Part shown: one piece after another, positions 562 to 7,815 of the stretch
Layout of the letters: the number at the start of each line of letters is the position of its first letter
How positions within the stretch are numbered: position 1 is the first letter of the stretch
Assembly (NCBI RefSeq): GCF_900156805.1
Contig: NZ_FTOQ01000002.1
Coordinates: forward strand, 496,001-560,000
Length of the DNA: 64,000 nucleotides
Direction: 5' to 3'
DNA from: Roseivivax lentus
GTDB lineage: Bacteria; Pseudomonadota; Alphaproteobacteria; Rhodobacterales; Rhodobacteraceae
Position numbers and translations under genes: made by a program
Notes under the pieces: model-generated
Told to the model about the DNA's origin: nothing
Database searches by the model: none
Seen by the model: only the letters and a program-made list of their open reading frames with translations

Positions 562-1779
562 ATGGACGGCTCCAAATTCGACGATGTGCAGACGCAGGAA
601 CAGCGGATCCGCAACTTCAACATCAATTTCGGCCCCCAGCACCCGGCGGCCCATGGTGTGTTGCGGCTGGTGCTGGAGCTCGATGGCGAGATCGTGGAGC
701 GCTGCGACCCGCATATCGGGCTTCTGCACCGCGGCACCGAGAAGCTGATGGAAAGCCGCACCTACCTGCAAAACCTGCCCTATTTCGACCGGCTCGATTA
801 TGTCGGCACGATGAACCAGGAACATGGCTGGTGCCTTGCCATCGAGAAGCTGACCGGTGTCGAGGTGCCGCGCCGCGCGCAGCTCATCCGGGTCCTGTTC
901 TGCGAAGTGGGCCGCATCCTGAACCACCTTCTCAACGTGACCACGCAGGCCATGGATGTGGGCGCGCTGACGCCGCCGCTCTGGGGCTTCGAGGAGCGCG
1001 AGAAGCTGATGCAGTTCTACGAGCGCGCCTCGGGCGCGCGCCTGCACGCGGCCTATTTCCGCCCCGGCGGCGTGCATCAGGATCTGCCGCCCGAGCTTCT
1101 GGACGACATGGAAGCTTGGTGCGATCCGTTCCTCGCGGTGCTCGGCGATATCGACGGGCTGCTGACCGAGAACCGCATCTTCAAGCAGCGCAACGTCGAT
1201 ATCGGCGTCATCACCGAGGAAGACGCCCAGGATTGGGCCTTCTCGGGCGTGATGGTGCGCGGCTCCGGCATGGCCTGGGACCTGCGCCGCGCGCAGCCCT
1301 ATGAATGCTACGACGAGTTCGAGTTCCAGATCCCCGTCGGCAAGAACGGCGATTGCTACGACCGCTACCTCGTCCGCATGGAAGAGATGCGCCAGTCGAT
1401 CCACATCATGCGCCAGGCCATCGAAAAGCTGCGCCTGCCCGAGAATCAGGGCGACATCCAGGCGCGCGGCAAGATCACCCCGCCGAAGCGGAGCGAGATG
1501 AAGACCTCGATGGAGGCGCTCATCCACCACTTCAAGCTTTATACCGAGGGCTTCCACGTCCCCGAGGGCGAGGTCTATGCCTGCGTCGAGGCGCCCAAGG
1601 GCGAGTTCGGCGTCTATCTCGTGGCGGACGGCTCCAACAAACCCTACCGCGCCAAGATCCGCGCGCCGGGCTACGCGCATCTGCAGGCGATGGATTTCAT
1701 GGCCAAGGGGCACCAGCTCGCGGATGTGGCGGCGATCCTCGGCTCGATGGATATCGTCTTCGGCGAGGTGGACCGCTAG
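562..1779 (+). CDS. nuoD: NADH-quinone oxidoreductase subunit D (49 kDa type)
   Basis: 405 residues, close to the roughly 410 of Paracoccus Nqo4. The N-terminus has the family signature [21 protein letters not shown], followed by [16 protein letters not shown], and the C-terminus ends [12 protein letters not shown]. NuoD lies in the connecting part of the peripheral arm and forms the quinone cavity with NuoB and NuoH. AGGAG at 551-555 sits six bases before the ATG at 562; an in-frame GTG at 559 would add only one residue. It is a separate gene from nuoC, unlike the fused nuoCD of enterobacteria. Confidence 0.97.
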
Positions 1780-1831
1780 GGCCCCAGAGGGTACGACACG
1801 CGGATTACGAAAAAAACGAGGGACCCGCGCA

Positions 1832-2152
1832 ATGAACCTGACCCGCTGGACGCTTCTGGCTGCCGTGACGGCGCTCGCCGCCTGCGAAATGCCCCCCGAG
1901 GGCACCAATGAGCAGGATGTCGCGAATTTCGACACCGCCGTAGCGTCGATCGGCTGCAACCTCGTCGACGAGGGCGATTACCAGGCGCTGGAAATTCAGA
2001 CCGGACTCAACCGGCTGCAATTGCAGGAAATGGCCGCCTTCCGGGTCGAGACCGGCGCTGCGGCGCGGCTGACCAATGGCGGCATGCGGCTGGTCACGGG
2101 GTCCTGTGCCCCGGTCGAGACGGCCGAGGCGCCCGCGGAGGATGCGGGCTGA
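1832..2152 (+). CDS. small lipoprotein between nuoD and nuoE
   Basis: 106 residues. The N-terminus is a lipoprotein signal: MNLTRWTLLAAVTALAAC, with lipobox L-A-A-C at residues 15-18. The mature part (about 88 residues) has two further cysteines (IGCNL, GSCAP) that could form a disulfide, and an acidic Ala/Pro tail. The start was chosen because it gives a complete signal peptide; the 52 bases after nuoD contain an AAAAAACGAGGGA stretch as a weak ribosome site. No family recognised. It is one of three separate lipoproteins inside the operon, with expected exposure in the periplasm, opposite to the NADH-oxidising arm. Confidence 0.7.
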   Translation: MNLTRWTLLAAVTALAACEMPPEGTNEQDVANFDTAVASIGCNLVDEGDYQALEIQTGLNRLQLQEMAAFRVETGAAARLTNGGMRLVTGSCAPVETAEAPAEDAG

Positions 2153-2271
2153 TATTCAGGGGCCGGGTCCGCGCCGCGCCGGCGGCGGACCGGTCCGAAC
2201 CGATGATGAGGGGGCAGGGCGCGCCACCGCGCCCCCGTCCCGAAACGCGCAGCGACGCGATAGGATGAACG
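2153..2271. other. GC-rich intergenic hairpins before nuoE
   Basis: The 119-base gap holds two strong inverted repeats. GGTCCGC (2166-2172) pairs with GCGGACC (2185-2191), with an inner GCCG/CGGC stem. A second GC-rich pairing lies in the GGGGCAGGGCGCG / CGCGCCCC tract around 2210-2240. There is no T-run, so these look like RNA-processing or stability elements rather than a terminator. Confidence 0.35.
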
Positions 2272-3384
2272 ATGCTGAGACGACTGCACCCCGACCAACC
2301 GGACAGCTTCGCCTTCACGCCTGAGAACCAGGCCTGGGCCGAGACGCAGATCACCAAGTTTCCCAAGGGCCGCCAGGCCTCCGCGATCATCCCGCTTCTG
2401 TGGCGGGCGCAGGAACAGGAAGGCTGGCTGACCCGTCCCGCGATCGAGCATGTCGCGGCGATGCTCGACATGGCCTATATGCGGGCGATGGAGGTCGCGA
2501 CCTTCTACTTCATGTTCCAGCTGCAGCCAGTGGGCTCGGTCGCGCATATCCAGGTCTGCGGCACCACGTCCTGCATGATCTGCGGCGCCGAGGACCTGAT
2601 CGCGGTGTGCCGCGACAAGATCGCCAAAAAGCCGTTCCAGCCCGGCGCCGACGGCAAGCTCAGCTGGGAAGAGGTCGAGTGCCTCGGCGCCTGCGCCAAC
2701 GCGCCGATGGCCCAGATCGGCAAGGATTACTACGAGGACCTGACCGCCGAACGCTTCGCCGAGATCCTCGACGAACTGGCCGCGGGCAAGGTTCCGACGC
2801 CCGGCCCGCAGCAGGGCCGCTTCGCCTCCGAGCCTGCCATGGGCTTGACATCCCTCAAGGATCTCGAGGGCGGCAACGCGCATAACGCCTCCGTCGATCT
2901 GGCGGTGACCATCGGCGACACGGTCAAGCGGATCGACGGCACCGAGGTGACGCTCGAGGCGCCCTGGCACGATTTCAGCCAGGAAAAGGGCGATGCTAAG
3001 CCCGGCCACGGCACCGTCAAGGCGCCCGAACGCCCCGTCGACGAGACCGGCATCGACAAGCGGCAGGCGCCCGCGCAGGGCAAGGCGCATCCCGAGACCT
3101 TCGCGCCTGCCGAAGCAGCCGAGGCCGCCGAGGAAGATATGGGCGAGAAGCCCGCGACGCTCGACGCCCCGCGCGGCGATGCGCCGGACGACCTCAAGCG
3201 GATCAAGGGCGTCGGTCCGAAACTGGAGAAGCTGCTGCACGAGCTGGGCTTTTTCCACTTCGACCAGATCGCGTCCTGGACCGAGGCGGAGGTGACCTGG
3301 GTCGACCACCATCTCGAGGGCTTCAAGGGCCGTGTCAGTCGTGACGCATGGGTCGCTCAGGCCAAAGAGCTTGCCGCGTCCTGA
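2272..3384 (+). CDS. nuoE: NADH-quinone oxidoreductase subunit E with long C-terminal HhH extension
   Basis: 370 residues; the canonical 24 kDa subunit corresponds to about residues 1-185. The [2Fe-2S] N1a ligands are visible as C96-x4-C101 and C137-x3-C141 (CGTTSC, CLGAC). Residues about 186-305 are an acidic, proline/alanine-rich linker. Residues about 306-370 form a helix-hairpin-helix (H3TH) domain with the motif IKGVGPKLE. The extension roughly doubles the usual length. The same domain, preceded by the same PATLD-PR motif, ends the protein encoded next (3464-4360). NuoE works with NuoF in NADH oxidation. The function of the HhH tail is not known to me. Confidence 0.95.
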
Positions 3385-3463
3385 AGTGAGAGTTTGCTTC
3401 CCGTGAAAAATTGGGCATCGTGTCTCCTAACTATGCACAAAAACACGGACAGGGAGTGAAAAC

Positions 3464-4360
3464 ATGAGTGCATCGAAGGGTGGAATGAGCTGCCAGACGG
3501 GTTGCTGGGCGCTCGCTGCAGGCGTTGGCCTGATTGTATTCGTGCTTTTGCTCGTGATGGGTGAAAGCGGCTGGATCGCCTCGATCTTCCTGGGCGGCGT
3601 GGCTTTCGTGGTGCTGGGCTTCGTCTTCAGCTGGATCTTCTGCAAGCCGCTGACCAAACCCGCCGAGGCCGCGATGGCGCTGAAGACACCCGGCTCCGCC
3701 GGGGTCAAGCCGGGATCGGCCGGGGTGAAACCGGGCAGCGCGGGCGCCGATGCGGCAGTTCCCTCTGCCCCCGCCTCCTCTTCGGGGGGCTCTGCCTCCA
3801 CCTCGGGATCGCCCGCGACGACCGGCGCCTCGCTGCCCGGCTCGACGCCGGTGGCCGCCGATGCCGAAGCCGGCGCCAAGGTGAAGCCCACGACCCAGCT
3901 CAAGGGTCAGGAGGAACTGGCGTCCAAGAAGGGCGAATGGAAATACGACGGCGGCAAAGGCGGCGCGGCCAAGCCCGAAGCCGACGCGCCGGAGCCGGTG
4001 ATGGCCGCGGGCGCCTCCACGGGCGCGGACAAGGATGCCGCGACCGCGGCGAGCCTCGATCCCGACGCGCCGCAGGACAAGCCCGCGACGCTGGACGGTC
4101 CGCGCGATGGCAGCGCCGACAACCTCAAGGAAATCAAGGGTGTGGGTCCCAAGCTCGAGATCATGCTGAACGAGATGGGCTTTTACCATTTCGACCAGAT
4201 CGCGAACTGGTCGGCGTCCGAGGTGAACTGGGTCAACCAGAATCTCACGGGCTTCAAGGGCCGCGTGACCCGTGACGACTGGGTCGCGCAGGCTAAGATC
4301 CTCGCGGAGGGTGGCGACACCGAATTCTCCAAGCGCGTCGACAAGGGCGACGTGTACTGA
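3464..4360 (+). CDS. membrane-anchored protein with C-terminal helix-hairpin-helix domain
   Basis: 298 residues. Two transmembrane helices (about 15-33 and 38-59) are followed by a low-complexity linker with three PGSAGVK-type repeats (about 76-95), then serine/alanine/acidic stretches. The final domain (219-281) is nearly the same as the C-terminus of NuoE: both share [32 protein letters not shown]. The preceding PATLDGPR also matches NuoE (PATLDAPR). AGGGAG at 3452-3457 supports the ATG at 3464. The domain belongs to the family often labelled flap-endonuclease-like, but no nuclease active site is visible. The location suggests a complex I partner or assembly protein that recognises, or was copied from, the NuoE tail. 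Confidence 0.85.
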   Translation: MSASKGGMSCQTGCWALAAGVGLIVFVLLLVMGESGWIASIFLGGVAFVVLGFVFSWIFCKPLTKPAEAAMALKTPGSAGVKPGSAGVKPGSAGADAAVPSAPASSSGGSASTSGSPATTGASLPGSTPVAADAEAGAKVKPTTQLKGQEELASKKGEWKYDGGKGGAAKPEADAPEPVMAAGASTGADKDAATAASLDPDAPQDKPATLDGPRDGSADNLKEIKGVGPKLEIMLNEMGFYHFDQIANWSASEVNWVNQNLTGFKGRVTRDDWVAQAKILAEGGDTEFSKRVDKGDVY

Positions 4361-4386
4361 TCCGCTAAGGAGGCGGTCTGCAAGCG

Positions 4387-4602
4387 ATGAACAGCGACGA
4401 TCTGGCACGGCGGGGGCGTCGAATTGCCCTCATCATCGCCGGGACCGGCGTGTTATGGATCGCGTCGACCGCAATCGGGGTGTCACAGGGCTGGACGGCC
4501 CGCACCCAGGCCCTGTTCGACCTGGCGGCGCTCGCCGGGTTCGGATGGGCTTTATGGATGATTTATGGGCTCTGGCGGGACCGCCAGAAGGACAAGGACT
4601 GA
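4387..4602 (+). CDS. DUF5337-type small membrane protein
   Basis: 71 residues: a short charged N-terminus (MNSDDLARRGRR), two transmembrane helices (about 12-32 and 42-60) and a basic/acidic tail (WRDRQKDKD). I recognise this as the Rhodobacterales family found in nuo operons and annotated DUF5337. A good AAGGAGG ribosome site lies at 4367-4373. It ends three bases before nuoF. Membrane location and operon position argue for a complex I accessory subunit or assembly helper; nothing in the sequence suggests catalysis. Confidence 0.8.
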   Translation: MNSDDLARRGRRIALIIAGTGVLWIASTAIGVSQGWTARTQALFDLAALAGFGWALWMIYGLWRDRQKDKD

Positions 4603-4605
4603 ACG

Positions 4606-5895
4606 ATGCTGCAAGATCAGGACCGGATCTTCACCAATATCTACGGGATGGGGGACCGCACGCTCCAGGGCGCGCAGGCGCGCGGCCACTGGGACGGCAC
4701 GGCCGATCTGATCAAGAAGGGCCGCGACTGGATCATCGACGAGATGAAGAAATCGGGTCTGCGCGGCCGTGGTGGCGCGGGCTTCCCGACGGGGCTCAAA
4801 TGGTCCTTCATGCCCAAGGAATCGGACGGGCGTCCGGCCTATCTCGTGGTCAATGCCGACGAGTCGGAGCCGGGCACCTGCAAGGACCGCGAGATCATGC
4901 GCCACGACCCGCACACGCTGGTCGAGGGCTGCCTGATCGCGTCCTTCGCGATGCAGGCCCATGCCTGCTATATCTACATCCGCGGCGAATATATCCGCGA
5001 GAAAGAGGCGCTGCAGCGCGCCATCAACGAGGCCTATGATGCGGGTCTCGTGGGCAAGAACGCCGCCGGATCGGGCTGGGATTTCGACATCTACCTCACC
5101 CACGGCGCCGGCGCCTATATCTGCGGCGAGGAAACCGCGCTCATCGAAAGCCTCGAAGGCAAGAAGGGCATGCCGCGCATGAAGCCGCCCTTCCCGGCGG
5201 GCGCGGGCCTGTATGGCTGCCCGACCACCGTGAACAACGTCGAAAGCATCGCCGTCGTGCCGACCATCCTGCGCCGCGGCGCGGATTGGTTCGCGGGCTT
5301 CGGACGCCCGAACAACGCAGGCACGAAGCTTTTCGCGGTCTCGGGCCACGTCAACAACCCCTGCGTCGTCGAAGAGGCGATGAGCATCTCCTTCGAGGAG
5401 TTGATCGAGAAGCATTGCGGCGGCATCCGCGGCGGCTGGGACAACCTCAAGGCGGTGATCCCCGGCGGCTCCTCGGTGCCCTGCGTGCGCGGCGAGAAGA
5501 TGCGCGACGCGATCATGGATTTCGACTACCTGCGCTCGGATCTGCAATCGGGCCTCGGCACCGCCGCCGTCATCGTGATGGACAAGGACACCGACATCAT
5601 CAAGGCGATCTGGCGGCTGTCGAAGTTCTACAAGCACGAAAGCTGCGGCCAGTGCACGCCCTGCCGCGAGGGCACGGGCTGGATGATGCGCGTGATGGAC
5701 CGGCTGGTGCGCGGCGACGCGGAGGTCGAGGAGATCGACATGCTGCTCGACGTGACCAAGCAGGTCGAGGGCCACACGATCTGCGCGCTGGGCGACGCCG
5801 CGGCCTGGCCGATCCAGGGCCTGATCCGCAACTTCCGCGACGAGATCGAGGACCGCATCAAGCACAAGCGCACGTCGCCCATCGCCGCCGAATGA
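4606..5895 (+). CDS. nuoF: NADH-quinone oxidoreductase subunit F (NADH-binding, FMN, 4Fe-4S)
   Basis: 429 residues, the normal length for the 51 kDa flavoprotein. The glycine-rich NADH/FMN loop [16 protein letters not shown] is at 51-66. The N3 [4Fe-4S] cluster ligands are C347, C350, C353 and C393 ([20 protein letters not shown]). It takes hydride from NADH onto FMN and passes electrons to the cluster chain. The start lies three bases after the stop of the DUF5337 gene, within the same reading unit. Confidence 0.97.
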
Positions 5896-5934: not shown

Positions 5935-6360
5935 ATGGACACCTTGGTGCAATACGGCCACGCGGTTGTGGCACTTGCGGCGACGACGTTCTTCGGACTG
6001 CTGGTCGGCCCGCTGACCGCAGTGGCGAAGATGACCGGCGGCCTGCAGGCGGGATCGACGCCCGAACAGGATTACGGCAACCGCCTCTATCGCTTCAACC
6101 GCGCCTATCTGAACCTCGTCGAGACGATGGGCTTCTTCGTGGCCTCGGTTGCCGCCGCGATCCTCGCGGGGGCCTCGCCCTACTGGGTCAACCTGCTGGC
6201 CTCGGTGTTCTTCGTCAGCCGCCTCGTGCTCTTCGCGGTGCATGCGGCGGGGATCGGGCCGATGAATTTCGGGCCCCGCACCTTCATCTACGTGGTGGGC
6301 TGGCTGTGCTGCCTCGTGATGTCGGTCATGGCGATTCTCGCGATCCTTAGCGCGGCCTGA
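5935..6360 (+). CDS. MAPEG-family integral membrane protein
   Basis: 141 residues, about four transmembrane helices. The stretch NRLYRFNRAYLNLVETMGFF matches the MAPEG signature (R-A-x-x-N-x-x-E). The family includes glutathione transferases and related membrane enzymes. Nothing here proves glutathione activity, but the RAxxN-E core is intact. It starts 39 bases after nuoF in the same direction and so sits inside the nuo operon between nuoF and nuoG. Its role there is unknown; it could be a passenger of the operon or a lipid-environment enzyme. Confidence 0.75.
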   Translation: MDTLVQYGHAVVALAATTFFGLLVGPLTAVAKMTGGLQAGSTPEQDYGNRLYRFNRAYLNLVETMGFFVASVAAAILAGASPYWVNLLASVFFVSRLVLFAVHAAGIGPMNFGPRTFIYVVGWLCCLVMSVMAILAILSAA

Positions 6361-7386: not shown

Positions 7387-7815
7387 ATGTCCCGCAAGAT
7401 CGCCCCGATGATCCCCCGTGTCGCGCTGGCCCTGATGCTCGGCCTCGGCGCCCAGACCGCCTCCGCGCAGGCCAAGCCGCCGCTGTCGCAGGTGGCCGAG
7501 ATCGACGACGCGCTGCTGATGATCGCCATCGCCGACGAGGTCCGCAACAAGTGTGACACCATCGAGGCGCGCATGTTCAAGGCCTGGAGCACGATCAACG
7601 CGCTCGAATCCCGGGCCAAGCGAATGGGGTATAGCGACGAGGAGATCGAGGATTACGTGACCTCGAAAGCCGAGAAAAAGCGCATGCGCAAGCGCGGCGA
7701 GGCCATTCTGAAGGCGCGCGGTGTCGCATTGGATAACGACGCCGACTATTGCACCTTTGGACGTGAGGAAATAGCCAAGGGCAGCCAGATTGGCGTCCTT
7801 CTGAAGGAAAGGTGA
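7387..7815 (+). CDS. DUF5333-type periplasmic protein
   Basis: 142 residues. A signal peptide (about residues 1-27, cleavage after QTASA) precedes a helical, charged domain with [21 protein letters not shown] and two cysteines (NKCDT, DYCTFG). I recognise it as the Rhodobacterales nuo-operon family called DUF5333. AAGGAG at 7375-7380 sits before the ATG. It ends nine bases before nuoG. Export to the periplasm means it cannot touch the NADH arm; it may contact the membrane-arm subunits from the outside. Confidence 0.8.

Follow-up and report, generated by a model that had tools for sequence, protein, structure and literature searches.

NuoE and the neighbouring protein-O ortholog of Roseivivax lentus end in the same helix-hairpin-helix module

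Within a 64,000-nucleotide stretch of Roseivivax lentus DNA (contig NZ_FTOQ01000002.1, positions 496,001 to 560,000; referred to here as the window, with all coordinates counted from its first letter), the complex I subunit NuoE and the membrane protein encoded directly after it end in the same helix-hairpin-helix (HhH) module, held in both proteins behind a linker. The membrane protein is almost certainly an ortholog of protein-O, which is known from the reaction centre-light-harvesting 1 (RC-LH1) complex of Dinoroseobacter shibae; the likeness of the NuoE and protein-O tails is already in print for that species and the R. lentus pair is a further member. We propose that protein-O was recruited into RC-LH1 from the nuo cluster, that gene conversion keeps the two tails alike and that the module may be a docking head on a tether, with nucleic acid as the likeliest single target that can be named. 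To this reading taken as a whole we assign a probability of about 0.42, its parts differing considerably in strength. The features on which it is based are as follows.

2272..3384, + strand: nuoE, 370 amino acids (aa; open reading frame (ORF) list, Pfam, NCBIfam), made up of a [2Fe-2S] thioredoxin-like core (Pfam match, residues 24-169), a segment shared with the NuoE of PDB 8QBY (to residue 233), a linker and the C-terminal HhH tail
3148..3381, + strand: HhH tail of NuoE, residues 293-370 (AlphaFold2 model, mean pLDDT 95.2)
3464..4360, + strand: protein-O ortholog, 298 aa (ORF, phmmer against the PDB, structure model), made up of a two-helix membrane hairpin, a long low-complexity linker, the HhH tail and a C-terminal peptide
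3482..3643, + strand: N-terminal membrane hairpin of the protein-O ortholog, residues 7-60, with Cys10 and Cys60 (matches 8YY9 chain O)
4079..4312, + strand: HhH tail of the protein-O ortholog, residues 206-283 (alignment, model)
4313..4357, + strand: C-terminal peptide of the protein-O ortholog, GDTEFSKRVDKGDVY
3145..3362, + strand: direct DNA repeat, copy 1 (79% identical)
4076..4293, + strand: direct DNA repeat, copy 2

Residues 1-233 of NuoE align with the 239-aa NuoE of 8QBY, which we take to be complex I of Paracoccus denitrificans, and about 137 residues lie beyond this shared segment, the HhH itself accounting for some 70 of them. The C-terminal extension described in the initial annotation of this DNA therefore exists and does end in an HhH domain, but it is about 137 and not 185 residues long. 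NuoE with such a tail is covered by the NCBIfam model PRK12373 (NF009040), which the window protein matches above the cut-off (575.7 bits, cut-off 514); Pfam HHH_5 reached 18.2 and 13.5 bits in the two tails, under its gathering cut-off of 27. When the C-terminal parts of NuoE and the protein-O ortholog are compared, 136 columns can be aligned at 49% identity (BLASTP E 9e-36), identity rises to 64% in the HhH core, and the two genes share a 218-bp DNA repeat of 79% identity (3145-3362 and 4076-4293). The claim of a domain shared by the ends of the two proteins is thus borne out, and all of the motifs that had been listed for it, WVAQAK included, are present in both. The protein-O copy has an extra C-terminal peptide, TEFSKRVDKGDVY, which the NuoE of the window lacks.

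The identity of the membrane protein follows from several comparisons. A phmmer search against the PDB matched it to 8yy9_O, the protein-O of D. shibae (E 3e-52), and to 9wqv_a (E 3e-33), a chain deposited as 'NADH:ubiquinone oxidoreductase 41 kd complex i subunit'; by their titles, entry 9WQV is the LH1-RC of Rhodovulum sulfidophilum and entry 9LTS the RC-LH1 of D. shibae. Its model consists of two N-terminal helices (residues 7-32 and 37-60), in keeping with the two-helix membrane protein recognized earlier next to nuoE, followed by a low-confidence linker and the HhH. The model hairpin fits chain O of 8YY9 with a TM-score of 0.82 by target and a root-mean-square deviation of 1.0 over 48 columns, at a weak Foldseek E of 0.46 and a probability of 1.00. 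According to PMC12079452, D. shibae protein-O (ABV93056.1; PDB 8YY9, 8YZ2 and 9JPB) lies between the reaction centre and the LH1 ring and was traced at residues 8-59 only, with a Cys10-Cys59 disulfide and with the hairpin cysteines on the cytoplasmic side in 8YY9. Its gene position and NuoE-like C-terminus are reported in section 2.3 of that paper, which describes the function of the protein as unknown and leaves open whether the gene is native or acquired. Both cysteines are present in the R. lentus ortholog, as Cys10 and Cys60.

How widely the tail and protein-O occur was surveyed in 149 Rhodobacteraceae genomes, each of a different genus, the nuo region being fetched for most of them. NuoE was found in 143 and 140 were initially classified, with G022, G102 and the NuoE contig of G144 left out on account of contig edges, and the further removal of G028 and G098, in which the fetched stretch contained no nuoF, gave a final set of 138. 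We count as a tail any HhH that matches the profile constructed in this analysis, and as a phototroph any genome with a match to Photo_RC (PF00124), a match that incomplete genomes could hide. The 80 named loci nearest to the NuoE of the window, among which Roseivivax halotolerans is the closest (79% identity), were chosen by likeness and are excluded from the frequencies; protein-O is found in 69 of them. R. lentus itself (genome of 4.44 Mb in 46 contigs) is a phototroph by gene content, since it has two Photo_RC genes over the cut-off, side by side, which we read as pufL and pufM.

A NuoE tail is present in 111 of the 138 genera, the other 27 giving no HhH match, and tailed NuoE is also found in some other families and as an NCBIfam model, so that the arrangement is not unusual, contrary to what had been supposed. 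A two-helix protein with an HhH, i.e., protein-O, follows nuoE in 89 genomes, including 43 of the 55 with Photo_RC and 46 of the 83 without it; 12 phototrophs have no protein-O beside nuoE, and three single-contig genomes (G003, G055 and G141) have protein-O but no Photo_RC match. A purely photosynthetic protein-O is thereby ruled out. Tail and protein-O occur together in 78 genomes, the tail alone in 33, protein-O alone in 11 and neither in 16 (Fisher p 0.0065, uncorrected for kinship), and these 33 and 11 genomes make an obligate NuoE-O pair unlikely. On re-examination, none of the 11 NuoE C-termini from the protein-O-only genomes was found to have the module; G107 has a long extension in which the module is absent, and the NuoE frame of G015 ends at a TGA that the search had counted inside the match, so the gene may be broken or misread.

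Both cysteines of the hairpin are kept in 36 of the 46 non-phototrophs with protein-O (neither in 9, one in 1) and in 22 of the 43 phototrophs (neither in 21, one in none), and across all 158 protein-O sequences, some of them duplicates, the corresponding numbers are 114, 42 and 2. Judged from these sequences, the pair is kept at least as well without a reaction centre as with one. That many non-phototrophs retain both protein-O and its cysteine pair implies usefulness outside photosynthesis. The likely history is that of an older nuo-cluster membrane protein with a non-photosynthetic role, taken into RC-LH1 by phototrophs. Its wide retention in genera without a reaction-centre gene also means that its function can be studied in an ordinary non-photosynthetic bacterium. 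A third ORF with an HhH, having at most one membrane helix, was observed between protein-O and nuoF in 10 of the 138 genomes (L122, L124, L138, L145, L155, L163, L185, L205, L231 and L232), so that one nuo cluster may contain the module three times.

For comparison of the tails, the survey and the named loci were pooled, giving 158 protein-O tails, 193 NuoE tails and 147 loci with both, with some duplicates (L100 and L116 seem to come from a single genome); the phototroph and non-phototroph counts given above and the tail tree were drawn from the survey set alone, leaving out the named loci. A strict TEFSKRV-type pattern at the C-terminus was found in 52 of the 158 protein-O tails and in 8 of the 193 NuoE tails. 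Fifteen columns are invariant across 62 tails, and next to the GVG hairpin stand H, D, Q, W and F residues that are invariant or nearly so. Between genomes, tail identity is almost the same whichever proteins are compared (NuoE with NuoE 0.673, protein-O with protein-O 0.679, NuoE with protein-O 0.666), whereas NuoE and protein-O tails of the same genome reach 0.697, a value attained in 0 of 2000 shuffled pairings. The same codon is used at comparable positions in 0.559 of cases within genomes, against 0.483 expected from the codon use of the same domains, and in 0.491 across genomes, against 0.454 expected.

In a tree of the tails from the 78 genomes with both, 36 changes between the NuoE and protein-O labels are needed (200 shuffles gave a mean of 52.5 and a minimum of 42), and a single clade of NuoE tails is rejected (p-AU 1.1e-5), a test that rules out one old duplication resulting in two clean tail families. 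Long tracts are shared between nuoE and the protein-O gene in individual loci, with 327 bp at 96.6% identity in L193 and 235 bp at 91.5% in L100. Beyond the NuoE core, the NuoE and protein-O tail distances are weakly correlated (partial r 0.188, reached in 14 of 999 permutations), and in G170 (L257) both NuoE and a protein-O-like gene have a divergent, L21-like version of the tail, a further sign that the two members of the pair change together. The simplest reading of these sequence patterns is that recurrent gene conversion within the nuo cluster keeps the tails alike, and we regard this as highly probable.

The module is not confined to the nuo cluster. A third copy in the R. lentus genome, diverged and without the FKGR stretch, forms the tail of ribosomal protein L21, and the NCBIfam models matching the tail are those for NuoE, L21 (PRK12278), S2 (PRK12311) and the phasin PhaH (NF045508). 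A class-wide sample contained the module in 22 of 230 genomes and a phylum-wide sample in 40 of 200, of which 39 belong to Alphaproteobacteria and 1, a weak match (E 6.4e-6), lies outside, so that the module is largely alphaproteobacterial. A strict search for PhaH relatives (E <= 1e-40) found none among the 230 genomes, and a PHROGs search with the tail gave no match. In the loci that were read, the carriers are NuoE, L21, S2 and proteins with one or two N-terminal membrane helices, one carrier having three predicted helices; the membrane-helix carriers possess long linkers or coiled coils, and some of them have two HhH copies. Tailed NuoE from outside the family was read in G205, G330, G332 and G336, with no second module match beside any of them.

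Several other carriers were observed alongside these. A second anchored HhH family, with one membrane helix, a coiled coil and the tail, was found at L281:3648-4277, L282:3944-4534, L283:3988-4557, L284:3777-4397, L285:3853-4473 and L286:3853-4749. Its gene directly follows that of an OmpA-domain protein in L281, L283, L284 and L286, the four loci whose neighbours were checked with Pfam, and a BON domain is over the cut-off in one of these four neighbours, an arrangement that suggests an envelope-to-cytoplasm link. Tandem double-HhH membrane proteins were found in another family of the class (L261:177-1697 and L294:790-1875). A weakly similar HhH is also present in eL32 of PDB 9l94_Q (E 1.3e-4 with the tail profile) and is thus another such domain on a ribosomal protein.

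The proposed role of the module starts from the orientation of protein-O. Since the hairpin cysteines are cytoplasmic in 8YY9, the protein-O tail should point into the cytoplasm, where the NuoE tail necessarily lies as well, and because the head is nearly the same on the two proteins, both probably bind one target. The module might then be a cytoplasmic docking head on a long flexible tether, through which complex I and the membrane complex containing protein-O would be held near a common target, for which nucleic acid of the nucleoid (or polysomes) is the likeliest single candidate that can be named. Nucleic acid is named because PhaH, another carrier of the module, reportedly binds DNA and places granules along the nucleoid: its N-terminal end binds storage granules, its C-terminal end binds DNA non-specifically via the HhH, and deletion of phaH leads to disordered granules, as summarized in PMC13052382. 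The nucleic-acid link raised in the initial annotation is to this extent plausible; against it stand the net charge of the domains and a protein-binding fold that is about as close, both considered below, and a nucleic-acid tether remains a tentative proposal drawn from analogy.

A more general view, in which one DNA-binding HhH head on the long arms of NuoE, protein-O, L21, S2, anchored coiled-coil proteins and phasins would be an alphaproteobacterial tether, with the NuoE and protein-O heads interchangeable by conversion, is unlikely at present; it would have respiratory and photosynthetic membranes, ribosomes and storage granules all held to the nucleoid.

Structural comparison does not decide the matter. 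The NuoE tail model is confident, and its best Foldseek matches are RadA N-terminal domains (top three TM-scores by query 0.58-0.60), followed at lower rank by Rad51, NusA AR2 bound to SuhB, SAM domains and DNA polymerases. A number of observations weigh against the reading proposed here. No Foldseek match of the tail was obtained at E <= 0.001, and the fit of NusA AR2, whose structure was determined together with the protein SuhB, is roughly as good (TM-score by query 0.55) as that of the nucleic-acid binders, so that the fold does not settle the question. What is common with PhaH is the domain only (73.8 bits against a cut-off of 250), and the DNA binding of PhaH is itself taken from a review (PMC13052382). 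By sequence count, both HhH domains of the window have a net charge of -2, and neither has the basic charge around the hairpin found in ordinary HhH domains. In the pooled set the 70-residue module averages a net charge of -1.4 in NuoE (193 sequences), -0.5 in protein-O (158) and -1.9 in the third ORF (15), and the hairpin part is not basic, whereas three control HhH stretches of this genome, RuvA-, UvrC- and Tex-like as named by eye, have charges of +3, about +2 and +4. These controls lower the odds of nucleic acid and slightly raise those of a protein target, and the charge counts speak mildly against DNA binding. With regard to recruitment, protein-O is commoner in phototrophs (Fisher p 0.007, uncorrected for kinship), which allows a mainly photosynthetic role followed by later loss of the reaction centre and does not favour full independence from phototrophy either; a test corrected for kinship, run on a tree of NuoE cores, had no power, with only 2-3 pairs supported.

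Much of this would be accommodated if the module were a domain for docking between proteins, similar to NusA AR or SAM domains, and did not bind nucleic acid. Its carriers (NuoE, protein-O, L21, S2 and the anchored proteins) would then share one cytoplasmic protein partner or bind to one another through their modules, which would gather ribosomes and the respiratory and photosynthetic complexes at the membrane. The greater acidity of the window domains relative to the three ordinary HhH stretches, the invariant or nearly invariant residues beside the hairpin, the position of NusA AR2-SuhB in the structure searches (rank 16 in one, rank 1 in another), the SAM domains among the matches and the membrane helices in many carriers other than NuoE, L21 and S2 all favour such a domain. 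The hairpin retains the hGhGPK form, which is typical of DNA-binding HhH domains, and this speaks for nucleic acid. The same is true of PhaH as a reported DNA binder with the same module (PMC13052382). Protein docking is thus a serious contender, though short of even odds, and the present evidence does not separate a nucleic-acid target from a protein one.

The initial annotation had also suggested that the two tails form a heterodimer which tethers the peripheral, NADH-oxidising arm of complex I to the membrane protein, which in phototrophs would mean to RC-LH1. Adjacent genes, co-occurrence of tail and protein-O above expectation, the weak correlation of tail distances and the single divergent tail type of the G170 pair speak for such a contact, but one partner is present without the other in 44 of the 138 genomes, the four tailed NuoE loci read outside the family have no second module match beside them, and gene conversion can account for the likeness. 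Protein-O has, moreover, been found inside RC-LH1 (PMC12079452). Tail coupling and gene conversion together neither require nor exclude physical contact, and we consider the heterodimer distinctly unlikely. It is still far less probable that the two tails evolve almost neutrally, as copies of one domain that conversion keeps similar and that serve no selected function: 27 of the 138 genomes do without an HhH match in NuoE and the 239-aa NuoE of 8QBY ends before the tail, but the 15 invariant columns, the occurrence of a module much like it on host proteins unrelated to one another and the conservation of the membrane hairpin and cysteines in protein-O argue against this.

The order of the genes here is nuoE, the protein-O ortholog, DUF5337 and nuoF, the last two lying downstream of the features listed above.

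4387..4602, + strand: DUF5337 gene, 71 aa, between the protein-O gene and nuoF
4606..5895, + strand: nuoF (Pfam)

Other extra genes of the nuo cluster are a lipoprotein-like ORF without a Pfam match (1832-2152), a MAPEG-family membrane protein (5935-6360, Pfam) and a DUF5333 gene (7387-7815). A scan of 1700-4800 for promoters and terminators gave 2 terminator-like signals, with 2.0 expected, and 1 promoter-like signal, on the minus strand, with 0.2 expected.

A literature search found neither the wide presence of protein-O in non-phototrophs with a better-kept cysteine pair, nor gene conversion between the NuoE and protein-O tails, nor the combined picture of one head common to complex I, RC-LH1, ribosome and phasin. 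The presence of protein-O in 46 of 83 genera without a reaction-centre gene bears on the native-or-acquired question left open in PMC12079452, indicating an old nuo-cluster gene, and the shared HhH head connects complex I, RC-LH1, ribosomes and storage granules via one small domain.

Among known systems, the RadA and Rad51 N-terminal domains and NusA AR2 are structurally comparable with the tail but share only 11-30% sequence identity with it (best 50 of 158 matches). The NuoE of the window differs from the PRK12373 model in that its match stops at model position 385 of 400, without the last C-terminal peptide of the model. PhaH of Caulobacter (NF045508) aligns through its HhH at model positions 143-233 of 234 (E 2e-20), but the R. 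lentus proteins have no phasin part and score 73.8 and 61.7 bits against the cut-off of 250, the HhH alone being shared; similarly, L21 and S2 with HhH tails have the C-terminal module in common while the host protein differs. The closest counterparts are the D. shibae and Rhodovulum sulfidophilum proteins of entries 8YY9, 8YZ2 and 9JPB, of 9LTS and 9LTV ('Protein LRC') and of 9WQV (chain a). The R. lentus protein differs from known protein-O in length (298 against 239 aa) and in being known here from its sequence and not from RC-LH1, and its family is found in many genera without a reaction-centre gene, on which section 2.3 of PMC12079452 is silent. It resembles protein-O in its N-terminal two-helix hairpin, its Cys10 and Cys59-60 pair, its long linker, its HhH C-terminus and its host with reaction-centre genes, as well as in the position of its gene between nuoE and nuoF, which in R. 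lentus is also preceded by DUF5337.

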